Assembly (NCBI RefSeq): GCF_003202235.1
Contig: NZ_MASU01000008.1
Location: 1-64,000, forward strand
Direction of reading: 5' to 3'
DNA: 64,000 bases
Source of the DNA: Prauserella flavalba
Lineage (GTDB): Bacteria > Actinomycetota > Actinomycetes > Mycobacteriales > Pseudonocardiaceae
Shown piece after piece: positions 1-14,841 of the stretch (position 1 is the first letter of the stretch; each line of letters starts with the position of its first letter). The notes beneath the pieces are model-generated. The model had not been told where the DNA came from, made no database searches, and saw only the letters and a program-made list of their open reading frames with translations. Position numbers and translations under genes: made by a program.

Positions 1-1
1 T

Positions 2-550
2 GTCGAGGATATTTGCCTCATCGCCTGTGACGGACTCAAGGGCCTGCCCGAAGCGTTGAACTCGTTGTGGCCGCGCGCGGACATCCAATGGTGCGTCGTA
101 CATTTGGTCCGGGCCTCGCTTCGATACGCGTCGAAGCGCTACTGGGGCCAGATCACGAAATCGCTGAGGTCCATTTACACCGCTTCCAACAGTGAGGCAG
201 CCCAAGTCCTATTCGAGGAATTCGCCGACGAATGGGAGGACCGGTGCCCGGCGATGATCCGAATGTGGCGCACAAGTTGGGAAAACTTCGTTCCCTTCCT
301 CGAGTTCCCACCCGATATCCGCAAACTCGTGTACACCACGAACCAGATCGAGAGCCTCAATGCGAGATTCCGTCAGGCGACCCGTCGGCGCGGCCATTTC
401 CCCACCGACCAAGCCGCACTGAAAGTGCTCTATCTCGTTATCAGAAAACCCCTCAAAAACCGCACCAACATCACCGGAAAGACGGTAGGCTGGATGCAGG
501 CATTGAACACACTGTCCATCTACTACGGTGACAGTATCAACGCTCAGTAA
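2..550 (+). CDS. IS256-family transposase, C-terminal part (5' end outside window)
   Basis: This is the C-terminal 182 residues of a mutator/IS256-type DDE transposase, open from base 2, so the N-terminus lies before the window. The second catalytic Asp is in the block ACDGLKGLPEA and the catalytic Glu is in TTNQIESLNARFRQ, both in the usual context, followed by RRRGHFPTDQAALK. The gene ends in TAA only 47 bp from the convergent end of the oxidase gene at 598. Its plus orientation matches the truncated IS256 transposase at 8183-8814, so the two pieces flank the biosynthetic operon as direct repeats of the same family. Whether this copy is complete cannot be judged here. Confidence 0.9.
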   Translation, partial: VEDICLIACDGLKGLPEALNSLWPRADIQWCVVHLVRASLRYASKRYWGQITKSLRSIYTASNSEAAQVLFEEFADEWEDRCPAMIRMWRTSWENFVPFLEFPPDIRKLVYTTNQIESLNARFRQATRRRGHFPTDQAALKVLYLVIRKPLKNRTNITGKTVGWMQALNTLSIYYGDSINAQ

Positions 551-597
551 CCAGGCAGGCGATCACCAGCCCGGCCACGAAGATCCTTACAGTCCCG

Positions 598-2343
598 TTA
601 AGGGTTGCCGATGAGGCGGGCGATGCGGTCGATGTAGTCGGTTCGTCCGATGAAGCCGCCAAGGCGTCCTGGGGGAACTGCGAGGCCGTCGATGAGTGTG
701 TTGAGGTGTTGGGTGACGTGTTTGGTGGCGGCCGCGTGGGCGTGGTGTAAGAGGTCGAGGTCGCCGGGGTGTAGTGAGCCGTGGTTGAGATGCCAGTTGG
801 CTGATTCCAGGAGGGCGTTGATTCCGTAGAGTCGGTGTGCGGCGCCGAGTGTGGTGTGCCACTGACCTTCGGAATCTGTGACCGCCTTGTCGAACTCCTG
901 GAGGGTTCGGCGTGTGATGTGTACGCGGGCGAGGTTCTCGATGTCGGGTAGGTGGGCGTTTGGGTTCTCGCGGTTGATGCGGTGCCGTAGTTGGTTGGCG
1001 AGGGCGTGTTCGTGGAGAGAGGCGAGGCGATACACCGAGCGCGGGTCCCCGAGGCTTGCGCTGGGGGCGTGGCGTCGGGCCTCGGCGTCGGTTCCTTCGA
1101 TAAGCTGTTTGCCCGCTTCCAGCAGGAGGAGTCGTGTGTCTCCGCCTGCGGCGTGGAAGCTGCGGGCCATGTCTTCGTAGACGGTGAGTCGGTTGGCGTG
1201 CAGGACGCCTTGGAAACCGCAGAGGCGCCGGCAGGTGGCAGCAACGGTTTCGAGCGTGGTGGTCGCGGCTGCCTTGGCGAGGGTGCGGTCGCGGTTGGCG
1301 GCGAGCCATGGGGCGTAGCTGGCATTGTCGGTTGTGTCGGTTGTGCCGGTGGTTGCGGTGCTGCGGCGTTCGTTGATGAAGTCCCGGCGCACCTTGTCGA
1401 CGTAGAAGCCGGTGGCGTAGACGTGAGCGACCGCTGATGCCAGTGCGATGCGGTGGGTGGTGAAGTCGAGTGCGGGTGTTCCGGGATGGCCGACGAGGCG
1501 TTGCGTGTTGTAGCGGGCGGCGATGGCGACCGTGGCGCGGGCGGCGGAGGCCAGGGCGACTGATGCTGAGGTGACGGCGGCGTTGACGCCGCCGAGGGAG
1601 CGGGCCAAGCGCTGCCCGGCCGAGAGGGGGTCGTTGACCTCGTTCCCGGTCAGGGTTGCGCTATCGGAAAGCCAGTAGCCGAAAGGGATTTCGGCGTTCT
1701 GAAACCGGATCACTGAGTAGTCCAGCGGCACCGGAGCGCCGCCGGGCAGCGTGGCGACGTGGGTGTGGGGGTGCGGGAACCGGAACGCGAAGGCGTGCAC
1801 TCCGTGGTCGGAGTCGTCGACGATGAGTCGCGCGTTGACGACGGCCGTCCGCGCCAGGCCGGTCCAGCCGACGTTGGGCATGATCTTCAGCGCAGCGTCG
1901 TCGGGGGTGTGCAGGGTGAAAACGGCGCGGTCGCGGTGGTAGCGGGCTTGGGTGCGGATGTTGACCTGTGAGCCGCCGCGCCCGAGTTCGGTGGCTACGA
2001 TCGCGCCGGGGGCGTCCATGGTGTCGAGGTCGGCGATGAGTGGATCCAGGTCGTCGTTGGGATGGCCGCATTCGACGAGGGCGGTGGTGGCGACTCCGTA
2101 GTGCACCATCGCGGCGTGCATCATCGCGGGGTCCACCATTCCGGCCCATTCCATTCCCGCGAGTAGCCGTTCGGGGCAACGATGCACTTCTCGGGCCGGC
2201 CCGAGTACCCGTCCGAAGGCTTGGAGCCGCTCGTAGGTGGCGTTGATGCCGGTGAGGTTCGGGTCGAACTCCGGTTTGCCGAGGAGTTGGTCGAGTTCGG
2301 CCCACACGGGCATGCGGTCGCCGAAGATCAGGTTATGCGTCAT
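598..2343 (-). CDS. acyl-CoA oxidase/dehydrogenase-family flavoprotein
   Basis: The 581-residue protein resembles FAD-dependent acyl-CoA oxidases. It has the substrate/FAD block ATELGRGGSQ, a beta-domain stretch ending in NVGWTGLARTAVVNARL, the segment IRFQNAEIPFGYWL and a helical C-terminal region rich in Ala and Arg. Such enzymes install a trans-2,3 double bond in an acyl thioester, passing electrons to oxygen or an electron carrier. The ATG overlaps the TGA of the upstream thioesterase-ketosynthase gene (ATGA), so the two are probably translationally coupled. Placement as the last gene of an ACP/KS/KR/TE-KS operon suggests it desaturates an ACP- or CoA-bound chain of that pathway. The family is clear; oxidase versus dehydrogenase and the substrate are not. 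Confidence 0.8.
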   Translation of the reverse strand: MTHNLIFGDRMPVWAELDQLLGKPEFDPNLTGINATYERLQAFGRVLGPAREVHRCPERLLAGMEWAGMVDPAMMHAAMVHYGVATTALVECGHPNDDLDPLIADLDTMDAPGAIVATELGRGGSQVNIRTQARYHRDRAVFTLHTPDDAALKIMPNVGWTGLARTAVVNARLIVDDSDHGVHAFAFRFPHPHTHVATLPGGAPVPLDYSVIRFQNAEIPFGYWLSDSATLTGNEVNDPLSAGQRLARSLGGVNAAVTSASVALASAARATVAIAARYNTQRLVGHPGTPALDFTTHRIALASAVAHVYATGFYVDKVRRDFINERRSTATTGTTDTTDNASYAPWLAANRDRTLAKAAATTTLETVAATCRRLCGFQGVLHANRLTVYEDMARSFHAAGGDTRLLLLEAGKQLIEGTDAEARRHAPSASLGDPRSVYRLASLHEHALANQLRHRINRENPNAHLPDIENLARVHITRRTLQEFDKAVTDSEGQWHTTLGAAHRLYGINALLESANWHLNHGSLHPGDLDLLHHAHAAATKHVTQHLNTLIDGLAVPPGRLGGFIGRTDYIDRIARLIGNP

Positions 2344-4394
2344 CGGGCGAGCACCTCGGTGTACCAGTAGCGGCGAAGGTTCCAGGAGCGCTGCGGGTGA
2401 CGTGGTCGCGCCGCGGTCTGGGTGGGCGGGGCGGCGATGATGGCGTGGGCGTTCGCGCCGGAGAGCCCGAACGAGGAGACGGCGGCGCGGCGGCGGCCGT
2501 CGAACGGCCACGGCTCCAGCCCCGTCGGCACGCGCAGCGCGGAGTGGTCCCAATCGATGACGGGCGCGGGTTCCTTGTGGTGCAGCGAAGCGGGAACCTG
2601 CCCGTGTCGTAGCGCGAGGACGGTTTTGAAGAGCCCCGCGATCCCGGCGGCCGGTTCGAGGTGGCCGATGTTGGTCTTCACCGACCCGACGAGGCACGGA
2701 TGGGGGTTTGCTCCGTATACCTCGTGCAGGGCGGTGAGCTCGACGGTGTCTCCGACTGTGGTGCCGGGACCGTGGGCTTCGATGTAGCCGATTTCGCTGG
2801 GGCGGCATCCGGCGTCGGTGAGGGCTTCTCGCATCATGCGAACCTGTCCCGGTACGCTGGTGGTGACGATGTTGCGGCCGGATCGGCCGTTGGCGTTGAT
2901 GGCTGAGCCTTCGACGACGGCGTGGATCGGGTCGCGGTCGCGCACGGCGTCGGCGAGTCGTTTGAGCAGGACGACCGCGACGCCTTCGGCTCGGGCGTAG
3001 CCGTCGGCGTCGGCGCTGGCGAACGCGGAACGCCCCCGCGGGGACAGAGCCTTCGCAAGGCCGTGAGAGGGCCCGGCGTCGGGATTGAGAATGAGGTGGG
3101 CCCCGGCGGCGAACGCGGCGTCGACTTCGCCGCTGCGCAGGGCCTGGCATGCGGTGTGGATCGCGGTGAGCGACGCCGAACACGAGGTATCGAGCGTGAT
3201 GGACGGGCCTTGGAGGTCGAAAAAATACGACACCCTGCCGGACAGGAAGCTCTTCAGCCCTCCGCCGGACAGCGAGTACATGTTCGGCGGTACGACGGGC
3301 GCGGACAGATCCCAGTAGTCGGAATGACTCTCACCGACCCAAACTCCGGTGCGAGGTCCCGCAAGGTCGGGCTGCTCGAGCCCGGCGTCGTCGATGGCTT
3401 CCTGTACGGCCATGAGCAGCAGCCGCAACCTGGGATCGGAGCGGTGCGCCTCCCTGGTGCTGAAGGCGAAGTGCTCGGCATCGAACTGGTCTACGCCAGT
3501 GACGAACCCGCCGGCCCGCATGATCGGTTGGTCGCGGTTGGCGACGCGGTCGGCAGGTACCGGTCCGACGGCGGTGCGGCCGTCGTGAAGCAGGTCCCAG
3601 AACTCGCCAGGGTTTTCGGCTCCAGGAAAGCGGCATGCCATGCCGATCACTGCGATCGGGCCGAGGTGGCGTGTGGCGGTGTGCGTATCGCGCGCGGTGA
3701 TGCGGATGATCTCGTCGCGTTGTTCGTTGACGGTGAAATGTCCGGCGTCGAGGAGGTGGAGCGAGACGTTGGCGTACGTCGTTTCATGCCACGCGACAAG
3801 GTCGTCGAGCCCGAACAGGGGATCGCTGGTACCGCTGATGACGGTGATTGGGCAGGACATCGTGCGCCCCGTGGGACGGTAGTGACCGACCGCGGTGGCA
3901 TCGGCGCGGATCACGTTGACATTGGCGTGGATCGCGTCACGGGCGGATGCTGGCGCCCCGCCAAGCCTGATGACTTCGGCGACGATGTCGGCATCGGGCA
4001 ACTCGTGCAGGGACGAGAACCGGCGCGGCGGCAGCTGAGGTGACGGGGCCGACAGAATGAACAGCCGGTCCGGTCCGGGATTCGCGCGTTCAATGAGGGC
4101 GGTGGTGACGGCATGCGCCAGCCACGCGCCCATGGAGTGGCCGAGAAAGTAGTATCGACCGGTGAGCCGCGGGATGACCTGGTCGGCGATATCTTCGGCG
4201 AGCTTCCACAGGGATTGGGAGAGTAGTTCGTGGCCACGTGGTCCCCGGCCTGGTAAGACCACCGGGAGCACGTCGACTCCGGGGATACGCCACGCGTCGA
4301 ACAGCGACACGGGCGCTCCGGAATAGGGAAAGCAGACCAGGTGCGCCCCGGCATTGGGGTTAGGGTCATGGCGCAGCCAGGAAATGGACGACAC
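2340..4394 (-). CDS. thioesterase-ketosynthase fusion protein
   Basis: Residues about 1-235 form a type-II-like thioesterase: LVCFPYSGAP near the N-terminus, nucleophile elbow GHSMGA, Asp in SGTSDPLFG and His in LDAGHFTV, so a complete Ser-Asp-His triad. A short linker leads into a modular-type ketosynthase (IAVIGMACRFPGAENPGEFW onward) with active-site Cys in DTSCSAS, first His in EAHGPGTT (usual HGTGT) and second His in KTNIGHLEP. The protein stops just after the ketosynthase; no acyltransferase, reductase or carrier domain follows. I chose GTG at 4394, preceded by GGAGAGG at 8 bp; an in-frame ATG at 4442 would overlap the upstream reductase. A TE placed N-terminal to a lone KS is unusual. 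It may prime, proofread or release chains for the operon's ACP; this is inference. Confidence 0.88.
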   Translation of the reverse strand: MSSISWLRHDPNPNAGAHLVCFPYSGAPVSLFDAWRIPGVDVLPVVLPGRGPRGHELLSQSLWKLAEDIADQVIPRLTGRYYFLGHSMGAWLAHAVTTALIERANPGPDRLFILSAPSPQLPPRRFSSLHELPDADIVAEVIRLGGAPASARDAIHANVNVIRADATAVGHYRPTGRTMSCPITVISGTSDPLFGLDDLVAWHETTYANVSLHLLDAGHFTVNEQRDEIIRITARDTHTATRHLGPIAVIGMACRFPGAENPGEFWDLLHDGRTAVGPVPADRVANRDQPIMRAGGFVTGVDQFDAEHFAFSTREAHRSDPRLRLLLMAVQEAIDDAGLEQPDLAGPRTGVWVGESHSDYWDLSAPVVPPNMYSLSGGGLKSFLSGRVSYFFDLQGPSITLDTSCSASLTAIHTACQALRSGEVDAAFAAGAHLILNPDAGPSHGLAKALSPRGRSAFASADADGYARAEGVAVVLLKRLADAVRDRDPIHAVVEGSAINANGRSGRNIVTTSVPGQVRMMREALTDAGCRPSEIGYIEAHGPGTTVGDTVELTALHEVYGANPHPCLVGSVKTNIGHLEPAAGIAGLFKTVLALRHGQVPASLHHKEPAPVIDWDHSALRVPTGLEPWPFDGRRRAAVSSFGLSGANAHAIIAAPPTQTAARPRHPQRSWNLRRYWYTEVLAR

Positions 4395-4419
4395 GGTCGG
4401 GTCCTCTCCAATGAACAGG

Positions 4420-5184
4420 CTAGTACTGGGTGAAGCCGCCATCGATGCTGATCGCCGCTCCGGAGATCGACCCTCCCTGAGGGGACGCGAGTACCGAGAC
4501 GAAGGCCGCGACTTCGGAGGGTTCGACCATGCGGCCGAGATCCCCGGTGTAGTAGGCCGCGGCCTGACCGAAGTCGGCACCGGAAGTTTCGATGGCGCCC
4601 TGGAGTTCACGGGGAATCATGTCGGTGTCGGTGATGCCAGGGCAGACCGCGTTGGCGGTGACGCCCCGCGTGGTGACTTCTTTCGCGAGGGTTTTGGTGA
4701 AACCGATCAGAGCATGCTTGGCGGTGGTGTAACCGGCTAGCCCCGCGGCACCTGTTTTGCCCGCGATTGAGGACATGTTGACGATCCGGCCGTAGCCGCG
4801 CGGCAGCATGTGTCCGAGCACGGCGCGACAAGCCCAGAACGCCGAGTTTACATTCAGGGTGAACGCGCGATTGAGCGCATCATCATCCACGTCGGACACT
4901 GGTTTGCCTTCGTCGGTGACACCTCCGGCGTTGTTGATCAGCACGTCGATCCGCCGGTACTCGTCGACGGTCTCTTCGATCAGGCTGGTAATCTGTTGGG
5001 GATCGGTGACATCGCACGGGATGTAGCGGGCCCGGTCTCCCGCCCCGAGCTCGGCGATGGCCTTGCGACCCCGCTCGGCGGAACGTCCGGAGATCACGAC
5101 GGTGCCCCCGTCGTCGAGGAGCTTTCTGGCGCAGGCCAAGCCAATGCCCGCGGTGCCACCGGTGATGACAGCGATCTGCCCCAT
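4420..5184 (-). CDS. 3-oxoacyl-ACP reductase-like SDR (FabG type)
   Basis: This 254-residue short-chain dehydrogenase has the NAD(P) motif TGGTAGIG, NNAG at the end of the fourth strand, and the catalytic Ser of VNMSSIAGK with the Tyr/Lys pair in YTTAKHALIG. The layout matches FabG-type ketoreductases, which reduce 3-oxoacyl-ACP with NADPH. It is preceded by GGAAAGGAA and lies 20 bp after the FabF-like ketosynthase gene, so one reduction step per extension is the natural role in this operon. The ATG at 5184 fits the ribosome binding site; a longer upstream reading frame is a shadow of the ketosynthase gene. Confidence 0.9.
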   Translation of the reverse strand: MGQIAVITGGTAGIGLACARKLLDDGGTVVISGRSAERGRKAIAELGAGDRARYIPCDVTDPQQITSLIEETVDEYRRIDVLINNAGGVTDEGKPVSDVDDDALNRAFTLNVNSAFWACRAVLGHMLPRGYGRIVNMSSIAGKTGAAGLAGYTTAKHALIGFTKTLAKEVTTRGVTANAVCPGITDTDMIPRELQGAIETSGADFGQAAAYYTGDLGRMVEPSEVAAFVSVLASPQGGSISGAAISIDGGFTQY

Positions 5185-5204
5185 TCGGGGTTCCTTTCCG
5201 TTGG

Positions 5205-6449
5205 TCAGGCTGCGGTGAAGGCCAGGACGGCGTTGTGTCCACCGAAGCCGAAGCTGCTGGAGATGGCGGTCTCGAAGCGGCCGGTGCGGACACTGGAGGT
5301 GACAAGGTCGAGTTCGCCTGCCTTGTCGCACGGAACCTGAAGATTCGCGGTCGGAGGCACCTTCTGCGCGCGCAGCGCGAGCGCGGTGTACGCGGCCTCG
5401 ATGGCGCCGGCCGCGCCGAGCGTGTGGCCGGTGACGCCCTTGGTGGAGGTCACGGCTGCGCGGGGCATGAGGTCGGCGATCACGGCGGCCTCGACCGCGT
5501 CCCCGGTAGGGGTGGAGGTGGCATGTGCGTTGACATGGTCGATCTCGCGAGGATCGAGCCCCGCGTCGCGGCACGCGGCACGCACCGCTGCCTTGGCTCC
5601 GTGCCCTTCAGGGTGGGGCGCGGTGACGTGGTGGGCGTCGGCACTTGCCCCGTACCCGGCGAGCCGGGCGTAGGGTTTGACACCGCGGGCGACAGCGTCG
5701 GCATCGCGCTCGAGCACGAGGATCCCCGCACCTTCGGCCATGACAAAGCCATCGTGGTCGCGGTCGAACGGGCGAGATGCGCGAGCGGGTGTGTGTTTGC
5801 GGGCCCTTGTCAGCGCACGGAGTTTGTTGAACCCGGCCACGTGTAGCGGCGTGACACTGGCGTCCGTGCCCCCACAGACCACGAGATCGGCAACGTCGGA
5901 ACGCAGCAAACCGAGTCCGATGCCGATCGCGGTAGCCCCGGACGCGCAGGCCGTGGAGACGACCATGTTGGGCCCCGTTGCGCCCAACTCGATCGACAGA
6001 ATTCCGGAGACCATGTTCACCAAGCCCTTAGGCAAAAAGCGGGCGTTCACCGCGCCCGGCCCCTCGGTCAAGAGCATGGCGTGATTGGCTTCGAACGTTT
6101 GCGCCCCACCGAACGCGGTACCGATGATGACCGCAACGCGGGCTCCGTCGAGCACGGACGCTGTGATCCGCGCGTCGTTCAACGCGGCTCGCGCGGCGAC
6201 GAGCGCGAACTGGGTGCTGCGGTCGTAGAGGCGGGACACCCGGCGCCCGGCGAGCCGGTCGACGTCGAACGTGTCCGGCACAATGCTGGCGAACCCTACC
6301 GGTGCATCGCCAAGCGCATCGACGAACCTGGTGGTCGGGCGTGCGGCGCAAACGGTGGCCCAGTTCGCGGTGCGCCCGACACCGGCCGGAGTGACGAGTC
6401 CGATCCCCGTGATCGAGGCGGGAGCGCTACCAGCCACGGCGCTATCCAC
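5205..6449 (-). CDS. FabF-like beta-ketoacyl-ACP synthase
   Basis: The protein is a 414-residue condensing enzyme of the KAS II type. Nucleophile Cys is in VSTACASG, first His in NAHATSTPTGD and second His in GVTGHTLGAAG, with the C-terminal SSSFGFGGHN loop. All three catalytic residues are intact, so it is a chain-elongating synthase and not a chain-length factor. The GTG at 6449 overlaps the acyl carrier protein stop by 8 bp. The operon has only one enzyme of this type plus the KS in the TE-KS fusion, so it is not a standard KS/CLF aromatic polyketide set. Housekeeping duty is possible but the mobile-element context argues for a dedicated pathway. Confidence 0.9.
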   Translation of the reverse strand: MDSAVAGSAPASITGIGLVTPAGVGRTANWATVCAARPTTRFVDALGDAPVGFASIVPDTFDVDRLAGRRVSRLYDRSTQFALVAARAALNDARITASVLDGARVAVIIGTAFGGAQTFEANHAMLLTEGPGAVNARFLPKGLVNMVSGILSIELGATGPNMVVSTACASGATAIGIGLGLLRSDVADLVVCGGTDASVTPLHVAGFNKLRALTRARKHTPARASRPFDRDHDGFVMAEGAGILVLERDADAVARGVKPYARLAGYGASADAHHVTAPHPEGHGAKAAVRAACRDAGLDPREIDHVNAHATSTPTGDAVEAAVIADLMPRAAVTSTKGVTGHTLGAAGAIEAAYTALALRAQKVPPTANLQVPCDKAGELDLVTSSVRTGRFETAISSSFGFGGHNAVLAFTAA

Positions 6450-6678
6450 CCACCTTCGCCGTGATGGTCTCGACCACCTGATTCACGGTGTTCTTATTGG
6501 TCAGCTCTTCATCGGCGATCTTGATGCCGAACGCCTGTTGCAGGATGTCGACAAGCTCGATCGTCGCGACAGAATCCACGCCGAGATCGTCCAAAGTGGT
6601 CTCTGGAGCGATGTCGTCGGCGAGGACATCGAAGTTGTTGCAGAGAACAGCGGAAAGATAGCGGGAAACGTTAGACAT
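6442..6678 (-). CDS. acyl carrier protein
   Basis: This 78-residue protein has the acyl carrier fold signature: acidic helix I, then the phosphopantetheine attachment Ser in LGVDSVATIELV (about residue 36), followed by the usual helix II/III region. It is the first gene of the minus-strand operon, with AGGAGAC a few bases upstream of the ATG. It would carry the growing chain for the FabF-like synthase, the reductase and the TE-KS protein. No phosphopantetheinyl transferase is seen in the window, so activation must depend on one elsewhere. Confidence 0.92.
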   Translation of the reverse strand: MSNVSRYLSAVLCNNFDVLADDIAPETTLDDLGVDSVATIELVDILQQAFGIKIADEELTNKNTVNQVVETITAKVGG

Positions 6679-7258
6679 GGTTTGCTGTCTCCTGTGAAGC
6701 GAGGGACATTGCCGGACACCGGCTGAGCTTCATCACCTTGGCACGCGGCAGCAGCTCGCCGGTAGCCGCCGATCGTGTGCACTGACAGTGGTCGCCTGGT
6801 TACACATCGATGCAAACCCGAGAGTAGTTCGCAGAGCAATGCCTGCGCCGACTCGCGCCCTCACTCGGAAACGTTAACCCCGGTCACCGGCAGGTTGCGC
6901 TCGCAAGCTGACAGAAGAGGACCACAGGTACCGAGGACGTCAACCACCAACCCGGCCGTGCGAAGAGACAGCTATCACATCCTTTCGGGACAACTCCGTA
7001 ATGGTCCGGCGTCAAGAATTTGCCCGGTATTTCGGCTAAAGAAATCAAAATGCCGGATGGGCGTGCTCACGGTCGACGTCGGGCTTTCGGCGGCAAATCG
7101 GCAGGACGACCATGATCCCGGCCTTGTGCACCTCGTCGAGCCCGCCGGACGCCCAAGTCGCGGTCCAACACGCGCTTCGCTCACCCGGACTCCGTGTGAT
7201 CGACAACCCCGAGTGCCAAACCTTCTCCCGCAGTCCTAGATGATTGATTCCTGGGTTC
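6679..7258. other. intergenic region upstream of the ACP operon
   Basis: About 580 bp hold no recognisable gene on either strand; the short frames have no family features. The operon promoter must lie here, but I could not pick a convincing -35/-10 pair. The stretch around 6990-7060 is less G+C-rich than the surroundings, which fits a regulatory or transferred segment. Confidence 0.5.
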
Positions 7259-8115
7259 TCAGTGGTCGTAGGCGGTGAGGGAGCGTTTGGCTGGAGTGTC
7301 GGTGGCCCAGTTGTGCCAGATGGCGGCGGCGAGTGCGAGGACGCGCTGGGCGGTGCGGGCCAGGACGCCAGCGGGTGTGCGTGCGCCGTGGCGTTCTAGC
7401 GATAGCTGGGCCTTGGTGGTGTTGATGATCGACTCGATGCGTTGCCGGATGAGGGCGAGGTTGCCGTGGCGCCGGTTCTCGTCACGGCGGTCGGGCCGCA
7501 CGAAGGTGATGCCGAGCGCAAGCATGTCACGTTGAAAGTCCTTGCCAGCGAAGCCTTTGTCTCCGATCACGACAACCCCGGCAGGAAGGGCGGCGAGGTC
7601 GCGGGCGTGGCCCAGCAGTTCGGCGGCGACTTCGCGTTCGCCGATCTTGGGGTCGGCCAGGCACCACGCCAGCGGCATGCCGTCCAGGGTGGTGACCAGG
7701 TACAGCTTCAGGCCCAGTAGAAGCGCGAGTGCGAGGCGCAGTAGCCGTAGCCTGCCCACCCCGCCAGTGCGGAGCGTTTCACGGTTTCCCGGGACGATCC
7801 GCAGGGCACCGGCGTGGCGTCGATCAGGCGGAATTGGTCGGCAGCGGACGGGACTTGGCTGGCCAGCAGTTGGGTGGCGCGCATGATCAGCGGGGCTGCC
7901 GCGATCAGACGCTTGTGGTAGCCGGGTTGTTTGGGCAGGTAGGGAAACAGGTGCCCGAGCCTGCCGTAGCAGAACCGCAGCCAGTGGTGCTGGGACGGGT
8001 ATCCCAGCAGGACCTGGGCCACGGCCAGGCAGATCAGTTCGGCGTCGGAGAGCTGCTTGCGCCGTCCGGGCCGTCGGTGCTCGGGCGGAACCACGCAGTC
8101 ATCAGGCCGTGTCAT
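7259..8115 (-). pseudogene. IS982-type transposase, frameshifted
   Basis: Two overlapping frames together give one transposase. The 5' part (8115-7708) contains PPEHRRPGRRKQLSDAELIC, AVAQVLLGYPSQHHWLRF, LIDATPVPCGSSRETV and GWAGYGYCASHSRFYW. The 3' part (entered before about 7713, ending 7259) continues LKLYLVTTLDGMPLAWCLAD, IGDKGFAGKDF, RPDRRDENRR and IWHNW. Adding one G in the G-run at 7713-7716 would restore a continuous protein reading W-G-L-K-L-Y, the expected family sequence. It is therefore a point-deletion pseudogene or a sequencing error. The start at 8115 (MTRPDDCVV) may not be the native one, and I did not find convincing terminal repeats. Confidence 0.8.
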
Positions 8116-8120
8116 GACAA

Positions 8121-8167
8121 CCGTGTAAGCCACGGATGGACCAAGATCGGATCGCGCGACGCGATCC
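8121..8167. repeat. two short hairpins between the IS982 and IS256 transposase genes
   Basis: CCGTGTAAGCCACGG at 8121-8135 is an imperfect hairpin whose reverse complement recurs inside the palindrome at 8815-8861. A perfect 8-bp inverted repeat with a 3-base loop, GGATCGCG-CGA-CGCGATCC, follows at 8149-8167. The first probably belongs to the 5' end of the IS982-type element and the second to the IS256-type end. Confidence 0.6.
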
Positions 8168-8182
8168 AGAAGGGCTCCATCT

Positions 8183-8814
8183 GTGACCGACAACACATCT
8201 CCTCAGGCTGGTGATTCCGAGGTGGGTAAGGCGCTCGCCGGTGCGTTATCGCCGGAGACCCTTGATGCTTTGGTGAAAGACGCCTACGCCAATGGTGGCG
8301 CTTTGGGTGCCCAGGAATTGCTGAATCGCATGACCAAGGCGGTGCTGGAGCGCTCGCTGGAAACCGAGATGACACATCATCTCGGTTATGAGAAAGGCGA
8401 CCCCGCCGGCAACGGGAGCGGTAATTCGCGCAATGGGCGGTCAACGAAAACCGTATCCACGACGAATGGGCCGGTCGAGGTGTCGGTGCCGCGTGACCGG
8501 AACGGCTCGTTCGAACCCGCGATCGTGCCGAAACGGGCCCGCCGGCTCGGCAATATCGACGAGGCGATCCTGTCACTGTATTCACGTGGCATGACCACCC
8601 GCGATATTGAATCCCACCTGCATGAAATATATGGAGTAAACGCGTCACGAGAATTGATTTCCAATGTGACCGAGGTGGTGACCGACGAAATCGCGCTGTG
8701 GCAATCCCGTCCTTTGGGCGAGGTGTATCCCATCCTTTACGTGGACGGGCTGCGACTGCGGGTCAAGGACAAGGGCGTGGTCACCACCAAGGTCGGCTAC
8801 CTGGCCGTCGGCGT
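8183..8814 (+). pseudogene. IS256-family transposase, N-terminal half, truncated
   Basis: The frame starting at GTG 8183 gives the N-terminal half of a mutator-type transposase: GALGAQELLNRMTKAVLERS, HHLGYEKGDPAGNGSGNSRN, the block VSVPRDRNGSFEPAIVPKR, SLYSRGMTTRDIESHL and the first catalytic Asp in YPILYVDGLRLRVKD. Homology stops at VGYLAVGV (about 8814); the next bases belong to the palindrome at 8815-8861 and the frame closes shortly after. The second Asp and the Glu are lost, so it cannot be active. Confidence 0.88.
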
Positions 8815-8861
8815 GGCCCTGTCACGGTTTCCGTGGCTTACACGGAAACCGTGACAGGGCC
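8815..8861. repeat. perfect 21-bp inverted repeat with 5-base loop
   Basis: Arms at 8815-8835 and 8841-8861 are exact reverse complements around the loop GCTTA. The structure starts at the base where the IS256 transposase homology ends. Its centre CCGTGGCTTACACGG is the reverse complement of 8121-8135, and both copies are followed, six bases on (read in the same orientation), by TGACA. It is probably the end of an inserted element or a deletion join. Confidence 0.85.
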
Positions 8862-8890
8862 AGTCATCACAGAACACGTAAAGTGCGGTC

Positions 8891-8940
8891 AGGAGGGTGT
8901 CAAGGTCGGTCTGCACAAACCTGATCTTCGACACCCTCCT
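8891..8940. repeat. inverted repeat downstream of the transposase break
   Basis: AGGAGGGTGTC at 8891-8901 pairs with GACACCCTCCT at 8930-8940, and the pairing continues imperfectly inward (AAGGTC against GATCTT). It looks like a mobile-element remnant or transcription stop; no gene is recognisable between 8862 and about 9030. Confidence 0.6.
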
Positions 8941-9029
8941 CTCGCATCTCGCGCCGCCCCACTGCCCAAGATCCATTAGGAATCAGTCATCTAGGGGTTC
9001 GGGGCTGTACGACTGCGTGTCATCCCCAT

Positions 9030-9325
9030 ACGACAGCCGCACAGCTCGGCCTGCGGACCGGACCCGGCAACGCCATGTTCGGAACCCTCGGCAACGTTGA
9101 GGTCAATCCCGCGGCGGGGCTGCTCTTCCCTGACGGGGAGACCGGCAGCACACTCCAGCTCACCGGGACGCGCAGGTCGACCGGGACTCCGACCGGGCAG
9201 CGGCTGTCCCAGGAGCGCAGCGACTGGTCGAATTCACGATCACTGAGGTCGTCGAGATTCTTGGATCCAGCCCGTTGCGCTGGAGCGCACCGGTCTATTC
9301 ACCCTTCAACCCCCTAGCCACGTAG
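9030..9325 (+). pseudogene. remnant of a pyridoxamine-phosphate-oxidase-like flavin-binding protein
   Basis: One frame reads LGLRTGPGNAMFGTLGNVEV followed by NPAAGLLFPDGETGSTLQLTG, the conserved core of the PPOX-like flavin-binding fold. At about 9170 one base is missing; in the next frame the protein resumes as AQVDRDSDRAAAVPGAQRLV, then EFTITEVVEI and ends SPFNPLAT at TAG 9323-9325. The 5' part is absent or unrecognisable, so this is a 3' gene fragment with a frameshift. It sits just before a decayed ferredoxin, and the two may once have formed a redox unit. Confidence 0.7.
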
Positions 9326-9360
9326 TCGGTGCTCGAGCCCCGAACCCGTGAGGATCGACC

Positions 9361-9545
9361 ATGAGAATCCATGTGGACATGGATCGGCTGCCGGAGCCAC
9401 GGTCAGTGCGTTTTCGCCGCACCCGGGGTCTTCTCTTTCGACGACGACAATCTGGCCACGTGCAGATCGCCGACAAAACCCTGCGGGATGCCGTGGTCAA
9501 GGCAGCCGTGCCTGTCCCGTCCGGGGCCATCGCGTCGACGGCCCT
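9361..9545 (+). pseudogene. decayed small ferredoxin (P450-associated type)
   Basis: Read with frame changes this is a complete small ferredoxin: MRIHVDMD in frame one, then CRSHGQCVFAAPGVFSFDDD in the second (from about 9389), VQIADKTLRDAVVKAAV back in the first (from 9460), and a Cys-Pro-Val in another frame at about 9513. The C-x5-C spacing and the late CPV are typical of 3Fe-4S/4Fe-4S ferredoxins that serve cytochromes P450. At least three shifts within under 200 bp make a sequencing artefact unlikely; the gene is dead. No P450 gene is present in the window. Confidence 0.7.
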
Positions 9546-9646
9546 GACCGCGGCGACGTCACTGGTGACGCTGTCGCCTCGGACTAGCGAATCGACACTT
9601 ATCAGCTCGCCCGCGCCCGGAGTCGAATTGTGCGTGTGGACTCAGG

Positions 9647-10534
9647 TCAGTCCGACAGTGACAACAGCTCCCGTGGGTTGTCGTGCACGATCTGGCGCAG
9701 GTCCTTCTCGGGCAGGCCGAGGTCGAGCAGGGCTTCGGCCACCCGGCGGAACGCGTCTACCGGCCGTGGGAAGCCGGCCTGGCCGAGGTCGGAGCCGATG
9801 AGGGTGTTTTCGGGTCCGAGGGCGGAGATCCACTCCATCAGCTGCTCGACCGGCCATCGCATCTTCGCGCCCGGGTCGTACATGTGCAGCTCGTGCTCGA
9901 TGCGAGCCCCGGCCTCGATGTACTGGGAGCACTGGCCGGGATCGGCGCCGATGACGAAGTCAGGGTGGGAGACGACGAATCGGCGGACGCCCCGCTCGCG
10001 GGCGGCCGCGAAGCAGGCGCTGATGTCGTCCGGGTGTAGGTGTCCGCCGTTGAGGACGGCGTCGTGCTCGGCGATCAGGTCGAAAATCGGTGCCAGCTCA
10101 GGAACGACCTCCCCGTCGCGGACGACCTCGATCCGCTCGGCGGTCAGTTTGACCGTCGGAGTGGGGAAACCCAGGTTCTCGGCGTGGCAGTCGATGTGCC
10201 GTCCGGAGGACACCGTCGGCAGGTAGACGACCTTGCCACCCAGCCCGAGGCAGAGTTGCACCTGGGCGAGGTTCAGCCCGCCGACCGTCGTGTTCAGCGC
10301 GACCGCGCCGATGACCTCCGTGGGGATGTCGGCAAGAAGCGGGCGCTGGGCAAGTACGTCCATCTGGGTGTTGTGGTGGTGGCATTTGGCCACCATCGCG
10401 CGCATCCGGAGGCGCTCCCAGCCGTCGCGCGCGCCGCCGGCGTGGTCGAACTCGCGGGGCATGGGGGAGGGGCCGGAGTGGCAGTGCATGTCGACGAGGC
10501 CGTCGAGAACCGCGGCGATGGCGTCTGTGGTCAT
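9647..10534 (-). CDS. DUF6282-like metal-dependent hydrolase
   Basis: This 295-residue protein begins with VDMHCHSGPSPMPREFDHAG, a metal-binding His-x-His at the end of strand one as in amidohydrolase-type TIM barrels. Further candidate ligands are in MVAKCHHHNTQ, GGHLHPDD, VVSHPDF and the final Asp of LIGSDLGQ. I recall this family as DUF6282; no reaction is assigned. The ATG at 10534 overlaps the aldolase stop (ATGA), making it the third gene of a tightly coupled minus-strand operon with the cupin and the aldolase. A ring-opening or decarboxylating hydrolytic step on the pathway's substrate is plausible but inferred. Confidence 0.75.
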   Translation of the reverse strand: MTTDAIAAVLDGLVDMHCHSGPSPMPREFDHAGGARDGWERLRMRAMVAKCHHHNTQMDVLAQRPLLADIPTEVIGAVALNTTVGGLNLAQVQLCLGLGGKVVYLPTVSSGRHIDCHAENLGFPTPTVKLTAERIEVVRDGEVVPELAPIFDLIAEHDAVLNGGHLHPDDISACFAAARERGVRRFVVSHPDFVIGADPGQCSQYIEAGARIEHELHMYDPGAKMRWPVEQLMEWISALGPENTLIGSDLGQAGFPRPVDAFRRVAEALLDLGLPEKDLRQIVHDNPRELLSLSD

Positions 10535-11307
10535 CGGTCTGCTCCGTTCTGAGTGGTGTCGCGGTGGGCGTCGGTGACGAGTTCGCGTGCGGCCTGGCCG
10601 AGCAGCGACGCGTCGTTGGCGATCAGGACGAAGTCGTGGTGGTCGGCGAGCTCGCGGGCGGCCGCGGCCGTTCCCACGGCGGTGCCGAGTGGGAGCTCGA
10701 GTGCCTTGGCGGCGCTGGCCACGTCGTCGAGCAGTGCGGCGAACGCCGCGGAACCGGTGGTCAGCCCGGTGGCGACGGCGAGGTCGGCCGGGCCGACGAA
10801 GAGGGCGGCGACGCCATCCACCGCGCCGATCTCTCGGACGGCGTCGATCGCCTCGCGACTCTCCAGCTGCGGGATCACCGCGATCTCCTCGCCGGAGGCC
10901 CGGTAGCCGGCGACGTCGGCGCCCCACGCGCCAGCGCGCACGGTCGGGCCGTATCCACGGGTGCCCTGCGGGGGGAACCGGCCGGCGGAGACGACCGTGC
11001 GGGCGTCGGCTGCGGTGTCGACATGCGGGACCAGCACTCCGCTCGCGCCGGAGTCGAGGACCCGCGAGATCGTCGACGGCGTCCGGTCCGAGACGCGGAC
11101 GAGAGCCGGGACCCCGCAGCCGCGTGCGGCGCCGAGCAACTGGTGCACGGTGAGGACGTCGAGCGGCGAATGCTCCATGTCCACGACGAGGAAGTCGAAC
11201 CCGGCCTGGGCCAGCAGCTCGACGCTGTCGATGGTGGGCAGCTTGATCCAGGTGCCGAACGCCGTCCGTCCGAGGGAGACCAGGAGTTCGCGGAACGTGG
11301 TGATCAC
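10531..11307 (-). CDS. HpcH/HpaI-family aldolase
   Basis: The 258-residue protein is a class II pyruvate-type aldolase of the HpcH/HpaI family, usually cleaving 4-hydroxy-2-oxo acids to pyruvate plus an aldehyde with a divalent metal. Landmarks are FGTWIKLPTIDSVELLAQAG, the metal/acid block VVDMEHSPLD, the pyruvate-binding region GVLVPHVDTAADA, the RGYGP loop and IPQLESREAID. The GTG at 11307 overlaps the cupin stop as GTGA, and the 3' end overlaps the DUF6282 gene. It is the most interpretable enzyme of the operon and points to catabolism of an oxo-acid. Confidence 0.85.
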   Translation of the reverse strand: MITTFRELLVSLGRTAFGTWIKLPTIDSVELLAQAGFDFLVVDMEHSPLDVLTVHQLLGAARGCGVPALVRVSDRTPSTISRVLDSGASGVLVPHVDTAADARTVVSAGRFPPQGTRGYGPTVRAGAWGADVAGYRASGEEIAVIPQLESREAIDAVREIGAVDGVAALFVGPADLAVATGLTTGSAAFAALLDDVASAAKALELPLGTAVGTAAAARELADHHDFVLIANDASLLGQAARELVTDAHRDTTQNGADR

Positions 11308-12215
11308 GGCTGCTCCGGCGCGGGGTATTCGGCGGCGTTGATGACCCAGCCCGGCTTGGCGGAGAAGTCGTGGCGCGGCGGGCAGAAAATGTCGATGAGC
11401 TGGTTGCGGACCTGGCTGACGGACTGGCTGGTGTGCACGGTTGGCGGCGGGATGATCGCGACCGACGGGCTGGCGACGTGCACGTGCTCGTCTTCGCGCC
11501 AGTCGGCCATGTCCGGGGTCCAGGGACTGCGGATGTGGTGGATGTACTGGCCGTCGACGGCGAGCGAGCACTGCTCGAAGTCGTCGTGGTGGTGCGGGGA
11601 CAGCTTGGCGGGGTCGCGGGGGCCGAAGTCCGGGTCGAAAAGGTTCACCATGAAGGTGCTGCAGCGGAACAGGCGGCCGAAGCGGTTCTGTTCGTAGGGG
11701 TGCTCGGCGACGGGATAGACGCGTAGTGCGGGGCCGTCGACGGGGTCCGGCCATGGTGCGAACGGGGCGACGTTGGCGTGCGGTTCGGCGTAGTCGGCGT
11801 GGTTGCGGCAGCGGGCGAGCAGGTCGGGTGAGGCGGCGGAGAACAACCGGACGATGGCGGTGTCGGCGGTGACGTCCACTCGGCTCTCCCCAGCGGGGAC
11901 GACAACCATCGCGGCGCCCTGCACAGTGGACTCGTCGCTGTCGGCGGTGAGCTTGGCGACCGCCGTGTCCTGGGGGAAGAGGACGACGTACTCGTCGGGC
12001 TGGCCGGTGCGCTCGAGGATCTCACCGGCGCGAGCCTGGGTGTAGGCGAGGGCGAAGTTCTGTCCGCGCACCCACCACGAGCGGCTGCCCTGGTCGCTGA
12101 TTTCGTCCGGCTCCAGCGAGGTGAAGTCGAGGTACTGCGCGGCCGCGTTCGGCTCGGCCGCCCGGGCGGGGGAGGCGGTGAGCTGGCTGCGCGGGTCATC
12201 GGGTCCGTAGGCCAT
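11304..12215 (-). CDS. cupin-type protein, first gene of catabolic operon
   Basis: The 303-residue protein appears to be a bicupin. The C-terminal half carries a His-rich metal-binding strand, SPHHHDDFEQCSLAVDGQYI, then a second histidine motif PPPTVHTSQ. The N-terminal half (EILERTGQPDEYVVLFPQD, MVVVPAGESRVDVTADTAIV) looks like a second barrel lacking ligands. Arrangement and length recall sugar-acid isomerase or dioxygenase cupins, but I cannot name the reaction. ATG 12215 is preceded by GAGGAG at 6 bp. The gene is transcribed away from the IclR regulator, and GAACATCGTGTTC lies upstream at 12319-12331. Confidence 0.7.
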   Translation of the reverse strand: MAYGPDDPRSQLTASPARAAEPNAAAQYLDFTSLEPDEISDQGSRSWWVRGQNFALAYTQARAGEILERTGQPDEYVVLFPQDTAVAKLTADSDESTVQGAAMVVVPAGESRVDVTADTAIVRLFSAASPDLLARCRNHADYAEPHANVAPFAPWPDPVDGPALRVYPVAEHPYEQNRFGRLFRCSTFMVNLFDPDFGPRDPAKLSPHHHDDFEQCSLAVDGQYIHHIRSPWTPDMADWREDEHVHVASPSVAIIPPPTVHTSQSVSQVRNQLIDIFCPPRHDFSAKPGWVINAAEYPAPEQP

Positions 12216-12318
12216 GTCGGGCTCCTCAGTCCTCGAGGGGGGCGCCACGATCGCTGCGTCGGAGGAGGGAAGCGCGCCGCCGAGACATGGGCGTCACCTC
12301 TGACTCCGTGGACATCGT

Positions 12319-12514
12319 GAACATCGTGTTCGGGTTTTGAACAAGCGCAGCCTGTCACAGCGCCTGCGGGCGCGCAAGAGCGTCCCGCAGGCGCGATCCT
12401 CGTCGCTTCGTCCGCAGAAGGCGACGGAACCGGCTCATCGGATTTCCCGGCTACTCTTGTCGTCGCGAGCCGATGGACCTACCGTATGACGAACATGATG
12501 GTCATATGACGAAC
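12319..12514. promoter_or_regulatory. divergent control region with candidate IclR operators
   Basis: GAACATCGTGTTC at 12319-12331 is a near-perfect palindrome about 100 bp upstream of the cupin operon. GAACATGATGGTC at 12491-12503 matches it at 10 of 13 positions and lies just before the IclR gene. Around the second copy, TATGACGAAC occurs at 12485-12494 and again at 12505-12514, exactly 20 bp apart (two helical turns). The layout suits an autoregulated IclR protein controlling both directions. Confidence 0.55.
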
Positions 12515-12522
12515 GGATTGTG

Positions 12523-13320
12523 ATGACAGAGTCGTCAGCCAGCCGCCCTGATGCGTCGCAGGGAGACATCCAGGCGGTGATGCGCGCGAGTCAGATTCTC
12601 GGGCTGTTCCGGCCCAGCCGCCCTGTGCTGACGGTCGCCGACGCCGCGGCCGAGCTGGGCCTGAACCGCACCACGACCCACCGCTACTTCACCACGCTGA
12701 TCTCGGCAGGGCTTTTGGAACGTAGCCGGGACGGCTCGGCGTTCGTCCCCGGTGGTCTCCTGGTCCAGCTCGGTACTTTCTCGCTGGGCCGGCGGGCGGT
12801 GGTCGACATGGCGCCGCCACACCTCGTCGCCCTGGCCCGGACCACCCGGTTGTCCGCGGCGCTGAGTCTCTGGGGAGCGAGCGGCCCGGTTGTCGCGCGG
12901 GTCGAGGAGGACAACAGCAATCCCGTCGTCGTGTCCGTGCGGATCGGTCATCAACTTCCGGTCGACTCCGCGCAGTGCAAGGTTTTCATGGCCTTCATGG
13001 CCGACCAACTGCACGCCGACCGGCTCATGGCCTCCGCCGCCGGAACCGAGCGGCGCAGGCTCGCCGAGGACGTGGCACGAGCCCGCGAGACGGGGCTGGC
13101 CTCCACCCATATCGTCGACACCGACATCACCGCGGTCGGAGCGCCCGTGTTCGACGAGTCCGGCATCGCTGCGACCGTGGCTGTCATCGGCACCGCGCGC
13201 ACCCTGCCCGTGCACACATCCGGCCCGGCGTGGCGCGACCTCGCCGTTGCCGCCTACGAGCTCAGCAAGGAGCTCGGTGGTGAGCACCACTACCCGCAGG
13301 ATTTCACCGCCCTGCTCTGA
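12523..13320 (+). CDS. IclR-family transcriptional regulator
   Basis: The 265-residue protein has an N-terminal winged helix (LTVADAAAELGLNRTTTHRY, about residues 33-60) and a C-terminal effector domain with RVEEDNSNPVVVSVRIG, the ARETGLASTHIVD segment and AVGAPVFDESGIAATVAVIG, as in IclR proteins. GTG at 12520 immediately precedes the ATG; no good ribosome binding site is visible, so the transcript may be leaderless. It is divergent from the cupin/aldolase/DUF6282 operon and upstream of the transporter, the usual position for an IclR protein responding to the pathway substrate. Confidence 0.9.
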   Translation: MTESSASRPDASQGDIQAVMRASQILGLFRPSRPVLTVADAAAELGLNRTTTHRYFTTLISAGLLERSRDGSAFVPGGLLVQLGTFSLGRRAVVDMAPPHLVALARTTRLSAALSLWGASGPVVARVEEDNSNPVVVSVRIGHQLPVDSAQCKVFMAFMADQLHADRLMASAAGTERRRLAEDVARARETGLASTHIVDTDITAVGAPVFDESGIAATVAVIGTARTLPVHTSGPAWRDLAVAAYELSKELGGEHHYPQDFTALL

Positions 13321-13476
13321 ACCGACGCCGCATTCCGGTCTCGGACGATGGGCCCGGACGGCGCGACGACACCCCTGAACTCCCCGTCTGCGGCTTCGGG
13401 CCGCCGTCGCGGCCGTCCCCTTTCCACGCGCGTGTTGCCGCTACTCGGGAACGCTCGGTTCACTTCGGAGAACACC

Positions 13477-14841
13477 ATGACCGACACCGCTCACAGCCTG
13501 CATCTAAACCCACCCGACTCGGGCGCCGACGAGAAGACCAAGCGTCGCCGGGCGCTGGTCGGAGGGATCGTCGGGTACTTCGTCGACCAGTTCGACATCT
13601 ACCTGCCCGTTATCGTCCTCGCACCGGCCATGAGCTACTTCGTGCCGAGCGACCTGGACGCCGGCACCGCCACGATCATCGCTGCGTTCGTCTTCACGGC
13701 AACGCTCATCGGCCGGCCGGTCGGTGCGGCGATCTTCGGAGTGATCGCCGACCGCACCGGCCGCCGCAAGGCGACGATCATCGCGATAGCCGGGATCGCG
13801 GTCACGACGCTGCTCATCGGGCTCCTCCCGGGACACGCGAGCGTCGGGCTCTGGGGCATCGCCCTCGTGATCCTGCTCCGCCTTGTCGACGGGATCTTCC
13901 TCGGCGGCGAGTACACCGCTGCGATCCCACTGGCTATGGAATGGACGCCGAAGCGGCGTCGCGGCCTGGCGAGCGGATTGATCACGATGACCTCGCCCGG
14001 GGCACTCTGCCTGATCTCCGCGCTCACCCTCCTGCTGCTGCAGATCTTCCCGGCCGGGACGCCGGACTCGCCCTACGCGGTGTGGGGCTGGCGAATTCCC
14101 TTCATCATCGGAGCGGCACTCGCTGCCGGCTTCCTCGTCTACTTCGTCCGTCACGTACCCGAGTCGGAAGCGTGGGAGAACTCCGAACCCGCCGCCAAGC
14201 GGATGTCCCCACTGCGCCAGCTGTTCACCGGAAGCAACCGCCGCAGCCTCGCGCAGGTGTTCGTCCTCATGACCGGCGTGTGGATCGCCCTGAACATCTC
14301 CGCCTCCGTCCTCCCCAGCCTGACCTCCAGGGTCGCCGGACTCACCCCGACCCAGCTGACCATCGCGATCATCATCGCCTCCGCCGCCAGCACCCTCACT
14401 TACCCAGTGGCCGGGCTGGTGAGCCAGCGCATCGGGCGGCGGCCGTTCTACATCGGCGTCGGACTGCTCGTCGCCATCGTGGGAGGCGGTGCCACCGCCC
14501 TGCTCGCGGGAGCCGACGAGCCCGGCTTCGGGCTTGCCGTCCTACTGCTGACCATCGCCTTCGCCATCGGGATTCTCGCCTTCGGGCCCATCGCCGCGTA
14601 CATGACCGAGCGCTTCCCGGCCGCCCTGCGATCGACCGGGTACGGCATCGGCTACAGCCTCGCCTTGGTCATCCCGGCCTTCTATGCCTACTACCTCGTC
14701 GGGCTCGGGGACCTCTTCGGCCCCACTTACGCATCGGCGATCCTGATGGCGCTCGGCGGGCTGCTGATCACAATGGGAGCTGTTCTCGGACCGGAGACGC
14801 GGGACGTCGACATGGGTGCCCCCGCACCGTCCCGTCAGTGA
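13477..14841 (+). CDS. MFS transporter of the metabolite:H+ symporter (MHS) type
   Basis: The 454-residue protein has about 12 hydrophobic segments, the loop 2-3 motif DRTGRRKATIIAI and the repeated loop 8-9 version SQRIGRRPFYIG, as in the MHS branch (shikimate, proline/betaine, dicarboxylate and aromatic acid symporters). RLVDGIFLGGEYTAAIPLAM resembles the conserved helix 4-5 region of that branch. ATG 13477 follows GGAG at a 6-bp space. It lies 156 bp after the IclR gene and probably imports the substrate of the divergent catabolic operon. Substrate unknown; an organic acid is likely. Confidence 0.88.
   Translation: MTDTAHSLHLNPPDSGADEKTKRRRALVGGIVGYFVDQFDIYLPVIVLAPAMSYFVPSDLDAGTATIIAAFVFTATLIGRPVGAAIFGVIADRTGRRKATIIAIAGIAVTTLLIGLLPGHASVGLWGIALVILLRLVDGIFLGGEYTAAIPLAMEWTPKRRRGLASGLITMTSPGALCLISALTLLLLQIFPAGTPDSPYAVWGWRIPFIIGAALAAGFLVYFVRHVPESEAWENSEPAAKRMSPLRQLFTGSNRRSLAQVFVLMTGVWIALNISASVLPSLTSRVAGLTPTQLTIAIIIASAASTLTYPVAGLVSQRIGRRPFYIGVGLLVAIVGGGATALLAGADEPGFGLAVLLLTIAFAIGILAFGPIAAYMTERFPAALRSTGYGIGYSLALVIPAFYAYYLVGLGDLFGPTYASAILMALGGLLITMGAVLGPETRDVDMGAPAPSRQ

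Follow-up and report, generated by a model that had tools for sequence, protein, structure and literature searches.

A thioesterase-ketosynthase fusion in a conserved five-gene cassette with a discrete acyl carrier protein in Prauserella flavalba and other actinobacteria

The DNA analysed here (the window) is the 64,000-nucleotide stretch at positions 1 to 64,000 of contig NZ_MASU01000008.1 of Prauserella flavalba (RefSeq assembly GCF_003202235.1), which encodes a protein with a thioesterase (TE) ahead of a ketosynthase (KS). Positions 2340–4394 of the reverse strand translate as one frame without internal stop into 684 residues, of which Pfam assigns 18–233 to Thioesterase PF00975 (E 9.9e-25) and 246–606 to the KS, in ketoacyl-synt N-terminal (246–483, 1.6e-69) and C-terminal (491–606, 4.8e-38) parts. 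A short tail runs to residue 684, and within it residues 609–666 match KAsynt_C_assoc only partially; the proposal that the tail is a remnant of a linker following an acyltransferase (AT) domain is weak, since 27 of 1000 shuffles score equally or higher. The start codon is GTG, preceded by GGAGAGG, a good ribosome-binding sequence; the mechanically delimited open reading frame (ORF) begins at 4610, within the neighbouring short-chain dehydrogenase/reductase gene, and position 4394 agrees with the N termini of relatives. Motifs place the TE triad at Ser87 (GHSMG), Asp191, and His219 and the KS residues at Cys405, His541, Lys573, and His578, bearing out the original prediction, made from the sequence alone, of a complete Ser-Asp-His TE and a KS with Cys/His/His in a single chain. 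Pfam finds TE and KS only in the window protein, with neither AT nor acyl carrier protein (ACP) domains, so that it lacks the KS, AT, and ACP in one chain of a modular or iterative type I polyketide synthase (PKS), and no NCBIfam PKS model attains its cut-off on it. The TE is of the type II-like PF00975 kind but is not a discrete stand-alone protein, being fused to the KS at all eight loci described below.

The fusion gene is one of five that run in the same direction in the window, all on the reverse strand. A discrete ACP of 78 residues (6442–6678, GVDS motif by eye) is followed by a FabF/KAS II-like ketosynthase of 414 residues (5205–6449, Cys and two His motifs by eye; fabF model 2.1e-124, under that model's cut-off), a FabG-like putative ketoreductase of the short-chain dehydrogenase/reductase (SDR) family (4420–5184, 254 residues, Pfam), the TE-KS protein, and an acyl-CoA oxidase-like flavoprotein (ACOX; 598–2343, 581 residues, Pfam) whose ATG overlaps the TE-KS stop codon (ATGA). 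The order ACP, FabF-like KAS, SDR, TE-KS, ACOX is constant at all eight loci, which rules out the KS as an orphan. The KS had been described as isolated, and this is true of its chain, which has no AT or ACP, but not of its setting, where a discrete ACP, another KAS, an SDR, and ACOX are its neighbours.

A TE-KS chain free of AT and ACP was sought in actinobacterial genomes, as the original prediction had proposed, and the fusion was confirmed at eight distinct loci: the window, L006, L007, L008, L009, L010, L073 (genome G771), and L075 (genome G626). They span two families, the relatives being 69–86% identical to the window protein, and because L006 and L007 are near-identical they represent about seven independent lines. 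Close relatives were drawn from genome contigs of Amycolatopsis orientalis DSM 43388, A. alkalitolerans, Prauserella shujinwangii, Streptomonospora alba, and Nocardiopsaceae YIM 96095, in a single scan seeded with exact peptides that reaches close relatives only. A stop codon or frameshift between TE and KS would have undone the prediction; none is seen, and all eight loci are in frame. The TE Ser and His are kept by motif at all eight loci and the Asp at seven, with Glu in L008, while the KS Cys, His, Lys, and His are kept at all eight. Ratios of nonsynonymous to synonymous substitution (dN/dS) are 0.22 for the TE and 0.17 for the KS between the window and L006, and 0.17–0.24 for both domains over the comparisons with L006 and L008; both domains are under purifying selection. 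The joining is therefore genuine, and a frameshift, an assembly artefact, or a chance joining is ruled out by these ratios together with the same in-frame fusion at every locus.

The order is also rare, as had been claimed. Unbroken matches through TE, linker, and KS start occur in 3 of 394 genomes in the class sample and 4 of 297 in the family sample, the window's own genome counted in both, and in 3 of 250 in the family f31 sample, two of them already in the class count; in one further genus none of 151 genomes has an unbroken match, and the two matches extending into the KS part contain a stop. None of the three same-genus genomes searched has the fusion. An ACOX query of the order sample gives a full-strength match in 2 of 397 genomes (G000 and G254). 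These matches overlap with the named loci (G254 is L008, G662 is L010, and G904 is L007, while G1083 and L009 have an identical 100-base stretch). Few candidates were scored per genome (5 in the class, 7 in the family, 8 in the f31, 14 in the further-genus, 6 in the KS-only, and 3 in the ACOX search), so the fusion rates are lower bounds, and weaker or additional copies could escape. L006 and L007 come from two differently named Amycolatopsis genomes with about 14 kb in common: over approximately positions 1–14000 their proteins, including those of the cassette, are 99–100% identical, after which the sequences diverge, and a recombinase gene lies next in L007.

The original prediction had nothing following the KS, which stands for five of the eight loci (the window, L006, L007, L008, and L073), where the chain ends after the KS and ACOX is a separate overlapping or adjacent gene. 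At the other three (L009, L010, and L075, all of one family) the TE, KS, and ACOX matches all come from a single ORF of 1290–1292 residues with no stop between them. The KS-ACOX junction lies at L009:12044–12139, with equivalents in L010 and L075, and the linker from TE-KS to ACOX is about 32 residues long. In L009 an ATG with a possible ribosome site is present at the start of ACOX, and a separate ACOX could also be made from this ORF. Between L009 and L075 dN/dS is 0.19 for the TE, 0.13 for the KS, 0.25 for ACOX, and 1.22 for the short linker, the pattern expected of real domains on a loose linker. The in-frame link suggests that TE-KS and ACOX share an intermediate.

ACOX matches acyl-CoA oxidases (ACOX_C_alpha1, 7.2e-11 by Pfam; PDB 1w07 and 5ys9) and carries, as ATELGRGGSQ, the motif TE(L)GxG, which we take to be the flavin-site motif of acyl-CoA oxidases and dehydrogenases. 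In sequence alignment the window protein has Gly400 where the oxidase 5ys9 has the Glu of the EGD motif, presumably the catalytic base of these oxidases, and the position is Gly in all seven cassette members aligned. In an alignment of 27 rows, with L007 omitted as a near copy of L006, the Glu is kept in 9 and not kept in 18. The keepers are four beside KASIII, ACP, and KAS genes (L040, L042, L046, and L129), L127 with adjacent ACP and KAS, L041 with a KAS, L128 with none of these next to it, and the pair L048 and L049, regarded as ordinary oxidases (L049 matches PF22924 at 1.3e-46). The rows lacking the Glu are the seven cassette members and 11 others. This Glu-less set comprises, beside the window protein (598–2343), L017, L018, L019, L036–L039, L043–L045, and L047, among which L017 and L036–L038 have a neighbourhood of KASIII, SDR, AfsA-hotdog, and ACOX genes. 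A 144-residue KASIII copy at L017:10748–11182 aligns to residues 1–62 and 251–329 of the adjacent full-length KASIII and is thus internally deleted.

The KS was predicted to be of the modular type, and its kin are the KSs of type I PKSs, both in the tree and in the KS-only search, including PKSs immediately preceded by a TE gene; in the tree it groups with these rather than with FabF, the only FabF-like row being the cassette KAS on a long outside branch. In the family search the top three TE-only matches are two loci of G877 (6.4e-44 and 1.8e-43) and one of G896 (1.2e-42), and at all three a KS-bearing gene comes immediately after the TE gene. By domain scan the downstream gene in L079 encodes KS-AT-DH-KR-ACP (DH, dehydratase; KR, ketoreductase), and the KS-bearing genes of L082 and L083 have open frames of similar length. 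In the KS-only query of 294 genomes, the unfused KSs of these loci take places 1, 2, and 4, with small margins over other type I KSs. L079, L082, and L083 thus resemble the fusion in the order of TE and KS, in a KS about 47% identical, and in TEs that are among the nearest unfused ones, but their TE and PKS are two genes, and the L079 PKS keeps AT, DH, KR, and ACP. The fusion has one origin in both trees (100/100). In the TE tree the fused and TE-upstream groups are joined at 93/91, under the starred level, and in the KS tree the fused KS stands beside a wider clade of 20 rows that holds the TE-upstream KSs (97/94), the clade itself having 90/74; the first tree thus ties the fusion to the TE-upstream pair with moderate strength, the second unspecifically. 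Seven duplicate loci (L065, L066, L067, L068, L072, L101, and L103), the identical TE row L006, and matches shorter than 170 residues for the TE or 340 for the KS are omitted from the trees. Counting against a clean origin story, a TE match in G353, of another genus, reaches 8.0e-43, among the G877 and G896 values, and by BLAST the TEs of L070 and L084 score slightly above those of L082, L079, and L083. A TE gene of this kind, next to a type I PKS gene that follows it, is a plausible source of the fusion, and the evidence hints at descent from precisely that arrangement. No unrelated TE-KS fusion was seen: the distant TE and KS matches L130, L132, L076, and L077, checked at the junction, are adjacent genes separated by both a stop and a new start, and none of four TE matches checked (L080, L135, L137, and L084) has a KS in its frame, KS and TE in L084 lying apart on opposite strands. 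Further TE matches in long open frames, for example in G1261, G1263, G1193, G580, and G809, fall outside these checks.

The window begins at a contig end, and the cassette is flanked by transposase fragments. On the forward strand the C-terminal part of a Mutator-type transposase (2–550, matched by Pfam over the scanned stretch 56–550) lies at that end and an N-terminal part (8183–8854, Pfam) lies on the opposite side of the cassette; transposase remnants occupy two frames of the reverse strand at 7259–8196, where 7259–7759 matches DDE_Tnp_1 and 7708–8196 has no Pfam match. Cassette GC content is 0.666, compared with 0.688 and 0.719 for two stretches to its right, and at the other loci it is near that of the surroundings. 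Because of the flanking fragments, the lower GC, and the lack of the fusion in the three same-genus genomes, the window cassette looks acquired. Farther along the reverse strand, at 9650–12248, are a DUF6282 protein, an HpcH/HpaI aldolase, and a 314-residue protein without Pfam match, with no evident link to the cassette. At three of the eight loci a tetratricopeptide-repeat (TPR) regulator of the NsdA family is encoded no more than about 1.5 kb upstream of the ACP gene (L008:6180–7532, L009:4970–6310, and L075:12922–14265); model NF053720 matches L008 (3.6e-99) and L009 (2.3e-89) above its cut-off. A tblastn search finds none in the window, L006, L007, and L073 stretches, in L010 about 770 bases of contig precede the ACP gene, and the sole NsdA match found in G000 sits on another contig. 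An NsdA relative (30%) at L017:8034–9401 adjoins a different ACOX gene set on an S. violaceusniger plasmid.

TE-before-KS order has already been reported at least once. According to PMC12154687, Dob2 of the DOBA/DAC diazo pathway is a TE-KS-AT-ACP protein supplied with substrate by a separate carrier protein, DobQ; the proposal is that it forms a C4 beta-keto acid by condensation and then frees it by hydrolysis, and a coupled assay confirmed its role in the pathway. Compared by description, the two share an N-terminal TE directly ahead of the KS, but Dob2 has AT and ACP in cis, whereas after the KS of the present protein comes nothing (five loci) or ACOX (three), and its neighbours are KAS, SDR, and ACOX genes. 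An Entotheonella nonribosomal peptide synthetase (NRPS)-PKS with an N-terminal TE is also described, and is said to occur in over 50 other bacteria. Side-chain genes such as FabH4, FabF3, and HxcO of CDA and CtmA-D of cystargamide, as described in PMC9136287, resemble the cassette in combining an ACP, a FabF-like KAS, and an ACOX- or acyl-CoA-dehydrogenase-like flavoprotein, a likeness drawn from description. The HxcO/CtmB sets, however, have KASIII and feed an NRPS, whereas the cassette has SDR and TE-KS with no NRPS adjacent, and a KASIII query gives no match at E<1e-8 at any of the five loci it covered (L035, L073, L074, L075, and L078; the window, L006, and L009 were left out). Aco of the avenolide autoregulator pathway is likewise an acyl-CoA-oxidase homologue in small-molecule biosynthesis, but PMC7554373 places a P450 and a receptor gene near it, and neither lies within the five-gene block of the eight loci. 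No description of an AT- and ACP-free TE-KS in a free-ACP cassette, or of the TE-KS-ACOX form, was found in the open-licence literature searched.

The fusion, the intact active sites, the conserved cassette, and the TE-KS-ACOX ORF are read from sequence, and from them we infer the order of steps, the substrates, the direction of the TE, and the product. The fusion protein probably helps to make and release a small acyl compound. The reading that we favour, and to which we give about an even chance, is that TE-KS acts in trans on the cassette's discrete ACP as a condense-and-release enzyme, with ACOX acting in between. The FabF-like KAS and SDR would assemble an acyl chain on the ACP, while malonyl-ACP and whatever dehydration or enoyl reduction is lacking would come from fatty-acid enzymes of the host; these host enzymes must be assumed because no DH, enoyl reductase (ER), or AT is detected by Pfam among the five genes and no KASIII at the loci queried. 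The type I PKS-derived KS would then accept this chain and condense it further, possibly without reduction. The ACOX-like flavoprotein, joined physically in one lineage, would oxidise the acyl or beta-ketoacyl intermediate, and the N-terminal TE would hydrolyse the product, besides perhaps removing chains that have stalled. Release would fall most simply to this TE because the other four cassette proteins have no thioesterase family match (by Pfam, or by NCBIfam for the ACP).

Several points weigh against this proposal. TEII-like domains often edit rather than release; the lack of DH, ER, AT, and KASIII, already noted, leaves steps to the host; and the reaction of ACOX is uncertain, the EGD Glu being replaced by Gly. 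The AlphaFold models, with pLDDT of 34.8 and 42.0, are too low for use. For Dob2 itself, PMC12154687 gives the TE step as a proposal and reports no detectable product from Dob2 without its partner oxidase.

The original prediction suggested a gatekeeping KS that edits or releases its own substrate. Editing is possible, and product release appears at least as likely. As a type II hydrolase that proofreads while attached to the KS, the TE would clear decarboxylated or wrong acyl groups from the ACP or the KS Cys, and the product would leave by transfer or cyclisation. The PF00975 type of the domain is consistent with this, as is the position of some of the closest unfused TEs, encoded by their own genes just ahead of type I PKS genes, where editing is the usual role. 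Nevertheless, none of the other four cassette proteins resembles a release enzyme, and the N-terminal TE of Dob2 is proposed to release product (PMC12154687); editing is the main rival to the favoured reading and seems somewhat less likely. It is improbable that the KS, instead of elongating, serves as an acyltransferase or priming domain, with all condensations left to the FabF-like KAS: one ACP is accompanied by two ketosynthases, of different ancestry in the tree, but the Cys, both His, and the Lys of the KS are kept throughout. That the protein is a decayed, functionless PKS fragment on a mobile element, as the missing AT, DH, KR, and ACP relative to L079, the transposase fragments on both flanks, and the lack of the fusion in same-genus genomes might imply, is hardly credible, this reading being already contradicted by the constraint data (dN/dS of 0.17–0.24, intact active sites, and constant gene order at eight loci in two families).

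The condense-and-release proposal can be carried further, to a conjecture that we think unlikely to hold in full. TE-KS, with or without ACOX, would be a compact trans-acting machine that condenses, oxidises, and releases on a free ACP, carved from a TE and iterative-PKS pair by loss of AT, DH, KR, and ACP. Its Glu-less oxidase would act on a beta-ketoacyl chain, for which the usual base would be unneeded since the beta-keto C-H is acidic. The product would be a diffusible small molecule, perhaps a signal, given the NsdA-family regulator upstream at three of the eight loci.

The locus places a type I PKS-like KS, joined to a TE and in one lineage also to an oxidase, within an apparent type II (free-ACP) system. 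If active, the protein would offer a small self-releasing KS unit for study or engineering, and the Glu-less oxidase, if active, poses a clear question of enzymology. The fusion also provides an anchor from which to mine genomes for this family of biosynthetic cassettes, which are uncharacterised and patchy in distribution.

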